Positions 55,453 to 60,157 of a DNA stretch of 64,000 nucleotides are shown in pieces. This DNA comes from Pyrinomonas methylaliphatogenes (lineage in GTDB: Bacteria > Acidobacteriota > Blastocatellia > Pyrinomonadales > Pyrinomonadaceae): assembly GCF_000820845.2 (NCBI RefSeq), contig NZ_CBXV010000002.1, forward strand, positions 310,001 to 374,000, written 5' to 3'. A program made the translations under genes and the position numbers. Under the pieces are notes generated by a model, which did no database searches, was not told the DNA's origin, and saw only the letters and a list, made by a program, of their open reading frames with translations. Within the stretch, counting starts at the first letter, position 1. Each line of letters opens with the position of its first letter.

Positions 55453-57723
55453 ATGTATAGAGGTCCATCGACCTTCGTTGGGTTCTTCTTTCTCATTTTC
55501 GCTCTAGCTTCGCTCTCTCTGAGTCAATCGAGCACGGGGCGATTGGTTGGGACCGTCTCTGGCCCCGATGGCGTCATTGCGGGCGCAACGGTTACCATCA
55601 CCGATAATCAAACGGGACGCGAGCGAACGGTCGTCACGAACGCCGAAGGCGTCTTCATCTTCCCTCAGCTCGAGGTCGGAACATATACGCTGAAGGTGAC
55701 GGCCCAAGGATTTAAGACCTTCACCGCGACCGATCTTAAGATAGACATCGCGCGCGAATATTCGCTCAACGTCACGCTCGAAGTCGGTGGCGTGCAAGAG
55801 AGCGTCACCGTAGTTGCAGGGGCGGATATTTTGAACGCGACGTCAGGCGAGTTGAGCAACACGGTAAGCCCACGCCAAGTGGTCGAACTGCCGCTCAATG
55901 GCCGCAATCCATTGCAATTGATTCAGCTCCAACCCGGGGTGGCCTCGAACGGGGCGACCAACACGACGATCAACGGGCAGCGCAGCTCATTCACCAATAT
56001 CACGCGCGACGGACTCAACGTCCAGGACAATTTCATCCGTGCGAATGCGACCGATTTCGTCCCCGACCGTCCGAACGTTGACGATACCGGGGAGTTCACC
56101 GTGATCACACAGAACGCTGGAGCCGATGCGGGCTATGGAGCCTCTCAAGTGCAACTGGTGACCCCGCGCGGCGGAAGCGAATTTCACGGCGCAGGTTTCA
56201 TCTACAATCGCAACTCCAAGTTCGCCGCCAACAACTTCTTCAACAATCTGGCCGGAACGCCGCGCCCGTTCCTCAACCGCAATCAGTTCGGCGGCAAGCT
56301 CGGCGGTCCGCTCTACCTGCCGCGCTTCGGCGAAGGCGGACCGGCCCTTTACAAGGGGAAGACCTTCTTCTTCAGCTCATACGAGGGTTTCCGCTTACGC
56401 CAATCGGCAACCGTCACGCGCACGATCCTGCTGCCGCAAGCGCGACAGGGCATCTTCACCTATCGCGATAACTCCGGCGTCGTGCGCTCGGTCAACATCC
56501 TTCAACTTGCCGGTCTATCCGGAATCGATCCCTTCGTCCAAAGCCGGATCCTGTCTAAACTTCCTACCGTCGGCAATCGGACCGACATCGGCGATCAGCT
56601 GAACACGACCGGGCTTGGTTTTACGCAGAAACAGGACCAGAATCGCGAAGCCTTCACCCTCCGCATCGACGAAGAACTCAGCACGCACCACTCGATCAGC
56701 GGCGTTTATGAATACCGCAAAGAGTTCCTGCTACGTCCCGACGTTGATAACTCGGGCAACGCTGGCTTCGGCAACATCCCAGCATCTTTCCAAGACAACC
56801 ATCACCACTCGCTCGTCTTAGCCTACCAGTACACGGGGTCTCGCTTCACCAATGAAGTTCGCGGCGGCGTCAGCGACGACAAGCCGCGCTTCGATAACAC
56901 GCGCGTCCCATCGGACTTCTTCATCGCCATGCCAACACCGGCAGGCAGCACCGTGACTCTCATCAGCAATCCAGAGGTCAACTTCCAGACGCAGGGGCGC
57001 AACGTCCGTTACTACAACCTGCAGGACAACGCGATCTATGTCCTCGGAGGACATTCGTTGAGGTTCGGTGGACAATTGCAAGTCTTTCGCATCAACCCAT
57101 ACGGTCCACCGGCTTTCTCCAATTCGACGATTCCGACATACGTCCTCGGGACCAATAACAACACGCCGACTTTGAACGCCAGCCAATTCCCCGGCGGTAT
57201 CAGCGCGACCCAGTTGAATAACGCCAACGCCCTTCTGGCGCTGCTCGGCGGCATAGTGGGGAGCGCTAACTTGACCTTCAACGCGACGAGCAAGAATTCG
57301 GGCTACGTGCCGGGGGCGCTCCCGAGCCGTAACCTGAACTTCGAACACTACTCCTTCTATGTTTCGGATCAATGGCGTCCGTTTCCGCAGCTGACGCTGA
57401 ACTACGGATTGCGTTATGAACTCTACACGCCAATACGGGAGCCGAACGGGCTAGCGCTCGAACCCGTGATTCAACAAGGCAAGGATGTAATCTCCACCAT
57501 CCTAGATCCGAACGGCATCTACGACTTCGTCGGACATAATGCAGGTGGGGACAACAAGTTCTTCAAAGCCGATCGCAACAACTTCGCGCCTGTGATCAGC
57601 GTCGCCTACGCGCCACAGTTCAAGAACCGTCTCTTCACGGCCCTCTTCTCCAATAACGGGCGGACGGTGATCCGTGGCGGTTTCCGCATGAGCTATGTCT
57701 TTCCGCATGAGCTATGTCAATGA
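55453..57723 (+). CDS. TonB-dependent receptor, Oar-like, N-terminal part (frameshifted)
   Basis: The 756-residue open frame holds a signal peptide (about 1-26) and a carboxypeptidase-regulatory-like domain (about 27-110, GTVSGPDGVIAGATVTITD). A plug (VVAGADILNATSGELSNTV, VVELPLNGRNPLQLIQL) and most of the beta-barrel follow. The frame is broken after GGFRMSYV at a perfect 19-bp tandem duplication (57681-57718). Deleting one copy joins it to the next frame for about 1248 residues, the usual size of acidobacterial Oar-like receptors. Such proteins import large substrates across the outer membrane. AAGGAGGAGG precedes the ATG. Confidence 0.9.
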   Translation: MYRGPSTFVGFFFLIFALASLSLSQSSTGRLVGTVSGPDGVIAGATVTITDNQTGRERTVVTNAEGVFIFPQLEVGTYTLKVTAQGFKTFTATDLKIDIAREYSLNVTLEVGGVQESVTVVAGADILNATSGELSNTVSPRQVVELPLNGRNPLQLIQLQPGVASNGATNTTINGQRSSFTNITRDGLNVQDNFIRANATDFVPDRPNVDDTGEFTVITQNAGADAGYGASQVQLVTPRGGSEFHGAGFIYNRNSKFAANNFFNNLAGTPRPFLNRNQFGGKLGGPLYLPRFGEGGPALYKGKTFFFSSYEGFRLRQSATVTRTILLPQARQGIFTYRDNSGVVRSVNILQLAGLSGIDPFVQSRILSKLPTVGNRTDIGDQLNTTGLGFTQKQDQNREAFTLRIDEELSTHHSISGVYEYRKEFLLRPDVDNSGNAGFGNIPASFQDNHHHSLVLAYQYTGSRFTNEVRGGVSDDKPRFDNTRVPSDFFIAMPTPAGSTVTLISNPEVNFQTQGRNVRYYNLQDNAIYVLGGHSLRFGGQLQVFRINPYGPPAFSNSTIPTYVLGTNNNTPTLNASQFPGGISATQLNNANALLALLGGIVGSANLTFNATSKNSGYVPGALPSRNLNFEHYSFYVSDQWRPFPQLTLNYGLRYELYTPIREPNGLALEPVIQQGKDVISTILDPNGIYDFVGHNAGGDNKFFKADRNNFAPVISVAYAPQFKNRLFTALFSNNGRTVIRGGFRMSYVFPHELCQ
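57681..57718. repeat. 19-bp perfect tandem duplication splitting the TonB receptor
   Basis: TTTCCGCATGAGCTATGTC at 57681-57699 is repeated directly at 57700-57718. Nineteen bases is six codons plus one, so it shifts the frame and creates a stop seven codons after the junction. Confidence 0.95.
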
Positions 57724-59218
57724 TGAGTTCGTTCGCGCTGCTGATAATGCTCTCTCGAGCAATCAAGGTTTGACGCAGCAGGTGACCTTGAGCAACATCA
57801 ACGCGCGGTTCTCAGCATTGCCCACCTTTTCAACTCCGACCTTCCAAGTGCCGCGCACCTACGCGCAGAACAATTTGCTTGCTGGGCGTTTCGGCACCGT
57901 TTTCGCCATCGATCCCAATCTGCAAGCGCCACGGTGGACCGAATATAGCGTTGGCATCCAGCGTGAGATCGGGTTTCAAACGGCGATCGAGATCCGTTAT
58001 GTCGGTGGGCGCAGCGACAATCTGGTGCGCGGGCGTGACCTCAATCAGGTCGATATCTTCAGCAACGGATTCGTCCAAGACTTCATACGGGCGCGGAACA
58101 ATCTGTTGTTGACGGGGAATCCGGCCTGCACACCGGCGCAGAATCCGGGATGCCAGACGCTGACTGTCTTCCCGCAACTGGCAAGCGGAGGGTTGCTTAG
58201 CAACGCCACTATACAATCGCAATTGCGCAATGGGACGCCAGCCGATTTGGCCGTCATTTACATCCAAAACGGATTGACGGGCAACGTCAAATTCCTCCCG
58301 AATCCCAACACCGGTGTAGCGGATCTACTGGACAACAGCGGTCGGGCGCGTTACAACTCTTTGCAAGTTGAGGTCAGGCGGCGCTTTGCGAAGGGCTTTT
58401 TCTTCCAAGCCAACTACACCTTCCAGAAAACGCTGACCGATGCGCCCGGTGTCGGACAGACGCGATTCGATCCGCTGCTCGATAACAATCAGCCGCAACT
58501 CGAGTATTCGCGCGCCGATTACGATCAGACCCACGTGTTCAACTTCAACACGATCTACGAACTGCCGATCGGCAAAGGGCGTCGCTTCCTGAACCAAGGC
58601 GGGGTGGCGAACCTTCTGCTGGGCGGTTGGCAACTGGGAACGATCATCCGCGCGGGCACTGGTGCGCCGGTGACGATCACCGATCCGCGCGGGACCTTGA
58701 ACCGCGTGGGGCGCTCAGGACGCCAAACGGCCGTCTCCTCGCTAACCAAGGACCAGATTAAAAGCCTGATCGGCGTCCGGCGCACACCCTGCGGCATCTT
58801 CTACATAGACCCATCGGTGATCAACATCAATCAGGCCAATCTGCAAGCCGGGTTGTGCTCGCAACTTGGCAGCGGGCGCGGAGCAGAAGGGTTCGGGACG
58901 ACTCCTTTCTCAGGCCAAGTCTTCTTTAACGCCGCCCCCGGGCAAACTGGGAATTTGGAGCGCGCGTTCATCAACGGACCGTTCATCTTCACGTGGGATG
59001 CTTCGCTGCTGAAGAACATCCCGATCACCGAGCGAGTTCGCTTCCAGATCCGAGTCGAAGCGTTCAATGTGCTGAATCGCGCGAACTTCTTCGTCCCGCA
59101 ATTCCCGACCGGAGGGAACAGCTCTGGATTCAACATCAACAGCACGAACTTCGGGCGCATCACTTCAACGGTGACCGACCCGCGCATCATTCAACTTGTC
59201 GGAAGGATCGAGTTTTAA
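57695..59218 (+). CDS. TonB-dependent receptor, Oar-like, C-terminal part (frameshifted)
   Basis: This 507-residue frame continues the receptor barrel: SYVNDEFVRAADNAL, then VGIQREIGFQTAIEIRYVGG and RRRFAKGFFFQANYTFQKTL. It ends with the outer-membrane signature and final Phe (LVGRIEF). It has no ribosome site of its own, and its first codons lie in the duplicated 19 bp. It is therefore the tail of the gene starting at 55453, not a separate protein, unless the duplication is reversed in some cells. Confidence 0.9.
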   Translation: MSFRMSYVNDEFVRAADNALSSNQGLTQQVTLSNINARFSALPTFSTPTFQVPRTYAQNNLLAGRFGTVFAIDPNLQAPRWTEYSVGIQREIGFQTAIEIRYVGGRSDNLVRGRDLNQVDIFSNGFVQDFIRARNNLLLTGNPACTPAQNPGCQTLTVFPQLASGGLLSNATIQSQLRNGTPADLAVIYIQNGLTGNVKFLPNPNTGVADLLDNSGRARYNSLQVEVRRRFAKGFFFQANYTFQKTLTDAPGVGQTRFDPLLDNNQPQLEYSRADYDQTHVFNFNTIYELPIGKGRRFLNQGGVANLLLGGWQLGTIIRAGTGAPVTITDPRGTLNRVGRSGRQTAVSSLTKDQIKSLIGVRRTPCGIFYIDPSVININQANLQAGLCSQLGSGRGAEGFGTTPFSGQVFFNAAPGQTGNLERAFINGPFIFTWDASLLKNIPITERVRFQIRVEAFNVLNRANFFVPQFPTGGNSSGFNINSTNFGRITSTVTDPRIIQLVGRIEF

Positions 59219-59299: not shown

Positions 59300-60157
59300 A
59301 TGAGAGGACTATCTGTCAGATTCACCCTCACGTTTTTGGCCGTCATCTCCTCTGGCTTCTTCCACCTCAGCACAGCTCAAACTTCCAACCCTAAGCTGGA
59401 GGAGATCATCACCAAACATCTCGCCACGATCGGCGCTGAAGAGACTCGCCGCTCGGTCTCCACCCGATTGATCACCGGGATCGTCATCGCCACTTTTCGC
59501 TCCCCGCAACTTGGCAGGATCGCCGGCAACGCCGCCCTGGCTTCAGAGGGGGAGAAGAACATCATCGGCATGTCGTTCGATAGAGCCGAATACCCTATCG
59601 ATAAGTTCGGATATGACGGCAGCGAAGTGACGACAAGTTACATCCGCCCCGGCGTAAGGTCAACGCTGGCCGATTTCCTCAAAACTCACGAAACGATAAT
59701 CGAGCAAGGGCTTCTCGGGGGCACGCTATCGACAGCGTGGCCATTGTTCGATGAAAACAAGCGAGGAGCTAAACTGGAGTACGGCGGCATCAAGCGGATC
59801 GGAGAGCGGGAAGCTTACGAGATCCGCTACTCTCCCCGCAAAGGGGCCGATTTGAAGATCCGAATCTACCTCGATCGCACGACCTTTCAGCACATACGCA
59901 CCTTGTACGAACGGACCATCCCGCCGCCGATGGGCATAGCTCCGGATCTATCAGCGAGTCAAAGGGAGACCAGATATAGAATGATCGAGGATTTCTCCGA
60001 TTTCAGGAAAGAGGGCGGATTGATGCTGCCCCACACCTACAAACTCCAGTTAGAGTTAGAGACGCGAAACGGAACCTACCTCGCCGAATGGGAGATGAGG
60101 CTCTCCAACTTCGCCTTCAACCAAAAACTGCACCCTCGGATCTTCAAGGCCAACTGA
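59300..60157 (+). CDS. Secreted hypothetical protein downstream of the TonB receptor
   Basis: The 285-residue protein has a signal peptide (to about residue 26, FHLSTAQ) and a start domain EEIITKHLATIGAEETRR. A beta-rich body follows (GIKRIGEREAYEIRYSPR, KIRIYLDRTTFQHIRTLYER) like LolA-type lipoprotein-handling folds. No family is certain. It lies 81 bp after the receptor and may assist it at the outer membrane (inference). Confidence 0.78.
   Translation: MRGLSVRFTLTFLAVISSGFFHLSTAQTSNPKLEEIITKHLATIGAEETRRSVSTRLITGIVIATFRSPQLGRIAGNAALASEGEKNIIGMSFDRAEYPIDKFGYDGSEVTTSYIRPGVRSTLADFLKTHETIIEQGLLGGTLSTAWPLFDENKRGAKLEYGGIKRIGEREAYEIRYSPRKGADLKIRIYLDRTTFQHIRTLYERTIPPPMGIAPDLSASQRETRYRMIEDFSDFRKEGGLMLPHTYKLQLELETRNGTYLAEWEMRLSNFAFNQKLHPRIFKAN

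Follow-up and report, generated by a model that had tools for sequence, protein, structure and literature searches.

A perfect 19-bp tandem duplication at the break of a TonB-dependent receptor gene in Pyrinomonas methylaliphatogenes K22

Spontaneous tandem duplications of 26-116 bp in the gene lrp have been reported from cultures of Xenorhabdus, and the lrp mutations, tandem duplications among them, were shown not to represent phase variation (PMC6786866). In flies and primates, most short insertions are tandem duplications (PMC2374710). Reversible frameshift indels have been described for Mycobacterium tuberculosis in a study that does not cover tandem duplications (PMC8339072), and a search of the literature provided no usable measured loss rate for two-copy repeats of ~20 bp. 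With respect to P. methylaliphatogenes, strain K22 has been reported to carry TonB-ExbB-ExbD genes, with one tonB-exbB-exbD-exbD cluster (PMC4644332). The current study deals with a large receptor gene of this thermophilic soil bacterium that is broken at a short tandem duplication and that is located in the window, i.e., the whole 64-kb stretch of DNA analyzed here. For this site the original prediction had offered three alternatives, namely an on/off switch of an outer-membrane receptor, a fresh mutation, and an assembly error.

The 19-bp repeat and the reading frame

The unit TTTCCGCATGAGCTATGTC occurs twice in the 64-kb window and at no other place therein (exact-match search). Both copies are located on the forward strand, at positions 57681 to 57699 and 57700 to 57718; they are adjacent, head to tail, and 100% identical, which confirms by exact match the claim of two perfect copies at the very point of the frame shift. 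The pair (57681-57718) is the top-scoring tandem array of the 64 kb (score of 76), and no such repeat pair was obtained from shuffled sequence. A third exact copy is absent from the rest of the 3.79-Mb genome (3,788,560 bases in 16 contigs), a partial third copy was looked for next to the pair and not found, and the end microhomology of the duplication amounts to a 0-bp extension on both sides checked.

An insert of 19 nt is not divisible by three and hence shifts the frame of one gene. Frame 1 (55453 to 57723, plus strand; 756 aa) passes through both copies and ends at a TGA (57721-57723). It comprises a signal-like N terminus, a CarboxypepD_reg domain (PF13620, 69.8 bits; cut-off of 32.3), and the first half of a PF25183 barrel, and it is colinear with the intact homologues L066 and L067. 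Frame 2 (57695 to 59218, plus strand; 507 aa) starts with an ATG inside the first copy and lacks a signal peptide of its own; a family-invariant C-terminal Phe is present on this second piece alone (37-sequence alignment). In the Pfam profile search, the 838 positions of PF25183 are covered from 2 to 462 by frame 1 and from 469 to 838 by frame 2, with 208 and 255 bits, respectively (cut-off of 30). On the intact L066 homologue, the first piece extends to residue 780 and the second one begins at residue 775, and the six residues shared by the halves (775-780) are equivalent to the 19-bp duplication. The halves are thus contiguous on the profile and on the homologue, which identifies the duplication as the frame break. 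Together they amount to ~1,250 residues, as do intact relatives (1,227-1,280 codons for the closest ones), and in good agreement with the ~1248 residues expected after removal of one copy.

Across 60 genomes, the best homologues show no stop over about 1,230-1,300 codons, and each of the 22 relatives with a readable site contains a single copy, like RGGFRMSYVNDEF, in a long open frame. Since the relatives are one-copy and open, the duplication is derived and so far known from this genome alone, and a change of copy number at 57681-57718 would toggle the reading frame. The nearest homologues share ~57-66% of their amino acids (best about 65%); a close relative of the locus was not found in the 60 genomes, and the single congener examined lacks an orthologue (best match of 42-44% over parts).

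The ATG codons of frame 2 (57695 and 57707) overlap the end of frame 1, the former just upstream of the TGA, as might be expected of a split receptor with both pieces made or of a recoding event in which the ribosome shifts frame, with the whole barrel still being formed. However, the second piece has neither a signal peptide nor an evident Shine-Dalgarno sequence, inspection of the sequence ahead of the TGA revealed no recognizable slippery site, and a split gene is absent from the relatives read at the site. We consider this the least probable of all explanations discussed here.

The receptor and its neighbor with a predicted LolA-like fold

The gene encodes a TonB-dependent receptor of the carboxypeptidase-regulatory-domain type (PF25183). 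Its original designation as a TonB receptor is borne out by the PF25183 matches on both halves and by the fold predicted for an intact homologue. This fold was modeled with AlphaFold2 for the L067 homologue (L067:2078-5500; 1,141 residues, the N-terminal part being omitted) on the basis of an alignment of 37 relatives and paralogues (pLDDT of 84.8, pTM of 0.80). The model matched FusA (Z of 30.9, rmsd of 4.2, 706 aligned residues), PirA (Z of 29.9), and BtuB (Z of 29.8), and these structural matches run over residues ~41-1141, i.e., the plug region and the barrel. NCBIfam provided a name for neither piece, and a phmmer search against the PDB resulted in weak matches that were confined to the N-terminal domain. 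The invariant residues R639 and G641, directly before the break, are located in a predicted barrel strand (636-647), and according to this model the break would fall in mid-barrel within a predicted strand.

A single open frame for the whole barrel does not exist in this gene, which is a broken member of the TonB-dependent receptor family and not a working one. Proteins of this type depend on a signal peptide for export, and their C-terminal strand is the BAM signal for insertion of the barrel. A functional receptor is thus not to be expected from the first piece, which lacks the last ~third of the barrel and the C-terminal insertion signal, nor from the second, which lacks the signal peptide and the plug. 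The 3.79-Mb genome of K22 contains 65 PF25183 matches, corresponding to roughly 45 genes. Among the receptor paralogues of K22, the closest one shares 37% identity, and therefore no near-duplicate stands in for the broken receptor.

A companion gene at 59300 to 60157 (plus strand; 285 aa), recognized by homologue search and structure prediction, follows the receptor match at a distance of 85 bp. A Pfam search assigned its product to no family; the predicted fold is LolA/LolB-like (pLDDT of 82.6), with a putative outer-membrane lipoprotein-sorting protein as the best structural match (Z of 15.3). The companion is present in 40 of 60 family genomes and adjoins a receptor homologue in 14 of the 20 genomes checked, which were drawn from the two hit lists, and K22 harbors only one homologue, which is intact. 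Receptor and LolA-fold gene seem to form a module that has no name in the libraries searched, and their pairing is a more interesting by-product of the analysis than the duplication itself.

Origin, age, and reality of the duplication

The alternative of a phase-variable on/off switch supposes that an outer-membrane receptor is turned on and off via gain or loss of one 19-bp copy. A perfect, frame-shifting repeat in a surface receptor gene is compatible with this proposal, and both the companion and the remainder of the gene are intact, as in a gene that is frequently restored. A repeat tract in relatives or paralogues, by which contingency loci are recognized, was nevertheless found in neither (one copy in 22/22 relatives; 0/30 paralogue loci): the 30 paralogue loci of the same genome contain no perfect tandem repeat of >12 bp, the longest comparable tract being 12 bp. 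Furthermore, two copies without a partial third one do not constitute a multi-copy hypermutable tract, and Xenorhabdus lrp mutants with comparable tandem duplications are not phase variants (PMC6786866). An evolved switch has accordingly found no support and is very unlikely, and its family-wide version is rejected for lack of similar repeats at the 30 paralogue loci. A shade less credible still is a slow, reversible two-copy 19-bp switch of K22's only copy of the receptor paired with a LolA-fold partner, in which case populations would always be mixtures of receptor-positive and receptor-negative cells. Of the proposed reversibility by slippage, it holds true that a perfect repeat can be lost in principle, but this alone is no evidence of a switch. 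If it existed, a switch would matter more than a plain mutation.

The codon-position GC contents are alike in both halves of the gene (0.56/0.44/0.72 versus 0.55/0.45/0.71), and no further stop or frameshift was found in its 3.8 kb. With a stop fraction measured in the two frames themselves and an indel:substitution ratio of 0.1 that was assumed, not measured, a neutral divergence of 0.5% would leave the gene without a second lesion with a probability of ~0.11, and a divergence of 1% with a probability of ~0.012. Judged by the sequence, the lesion thus appears to be young, or else absent from the cells, and the freedom from second lesions over 3.8 kb is in line with the young age proposed for the repeat. 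A fixed species-level pseudogene that is older than the strain and decaying would explain the broken frame, and two paralogues in the genome are broken too, but its credibility suffers from the missing second lesion, the identical copies, the preserved codon structure, and the companion gene, which is intact and has no second homologue in the genome. We regard such a pseudogene as highly improbable, even more so than the switch in either form.

The best explanation is probably a recent, strain-specific loss-of-function tandem duplication in the receptor gene, and a fresh mutation is the best fit among the three alternatives of the original prediction, given that there is no other lesion and one copy in the relatives. 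Both the directly adjacent extra copy and the single-copy ancestral state, which characterize spontaneous short tandem duplications, were found, and the kind of event is an ordinary background mutation. In this scenario, 19 bp inside the large TonB-dependent receptor gene would have been copied once in tandem, thereby shifting the frame, and the duplication would exist in the cells and not only in the assembly. Its origin is probably recent and within the lineage of K22, perhaps in the course of cultivation, by a template slip or switch in replication or repair without end homology; slippage could also reverse it, but at the background rate of an unselected event. As an origin, slippage on end microhomology has no support (0 bp on both sides). 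A search for Ku (PF02735) gave no match in the genome, which makes Ku-dependent end joining unlikely, and a replication or repair template switch would be the remaining ordinary route. A target duplication of 19 bp would be unusual for a transposon, and no transposable element remains at the site.

Second to a recent duplication, and clearly less likely, is a local assembly or consensus error, i.e., a 19-bp overlap left unmerged at a join or a minority read that was kept, with the gene being intact in reality. The K22T draft was obtained from 454 GS Junior and Nextera XT MiSeq reads, assembled with MIRA, and hand-curated in Staden, and the genome paper names no pseudogenes (PMC4644332). Such a hybrid, manually curated draft makes an error conceivable, and the end microhomology of 0 bp is what an unmerged overlap would leave behind. 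On the other hand, reads of both types (150 bp and ~490 bp, at a reported coverage of 75x) would readily span the 38-bp tract. This favors a real duplication, although a faulty join made by hand is conceivable. In a census of perfect tandem arrays with a unit of at least 15 bp, 8 were counted in 1.264 Mb sampled here and 5 in 400 kb of the finished relative G046, where two 19-bp duplications without end homology were found; the number per Mb is thus lower in the draft than in the finished genome. Short perfect duplications are therefore a normal background class, and the draft shows no assembly-wide excess.

Two of the eight sampled arrays are frame-breaking, i.e., the 19-bp receptor case and a 26-bp perfect tandem duplication at L094:16715-16768 (G000:C8:416715-416768). 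The latter shifts another frame, with a 188-aa piece on one side and a 349-aa piece carrying CBM_6 on the other; more frame changes seem to be present in the upstream part. This second case is weak evidence and strongly supports neither a mutational nor an assembly cause. Elsewhere in the genome, a short CRISPR-like array that repeats every 61 bp (L100:16763-17035; G000:C8:716763-717035) is located downstream of a tRNA-like sequence and contains the same ~32-bp spacer in four consecutive units.

Two other PF25183 genes are split by small indels, i.e., L128 near 12860 (G000:C3 near 237.86 kb) and L129 near 13810 (G000:C1 near 228.81 kb), and tandem duplications of at least 11 bp are not the cause of these breaks. 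The C1 break adjoins a short G run, and short G runs are typical sites of 454 errors. Both splits could be consensus errors, which lowers the trust in single frame breaks of this draft and speaks for an error at the 19-bp site, too. In the event of such an error, one gene is divided into two in the public genome, and the same may hold for at least two further receptors. If the duplication is real, the type strain represents a clean case of a receptor lost through one short tandem duplication, and studies of growth and uptake in K22T should not take this receptor for granted.

Comparison with known systems

TonB-dependent receptors, e.g., FusA, BtuB, FhuA, and SusC-like proteins with an N-terminal carboxypeptidase-regulatory domain, share the predicted plug and barrel of the intact homologue. 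The gene described here likewise has a CarboxypepD_reg domain, a PF25183 barrel, and the conserved C-terminal Phe, but this copy is broken and paired with a LolA-fold gene. The promoter repeats of M. tuberculosis exemplify phase variation by tandem repeats (PMC12817950), and the K22 locus resembles them in its perfect tandem repeat, whose copy number would set expression. It differs in having two copies that are located in a coding frame and not in a promoter, and the repeat is absent from relatives and paralogues and not polymorphic in the data examined. Compared to the lrp duplications of Xenorhabdus (PMC6786866), the current example is 19 bp long, affects a receptor gene, and is known from a draft genome alone, but the likeness is close: in both systems the protein is lost through a single additional tandem copy of coding sequence, and no dedicated mechanism is involved.
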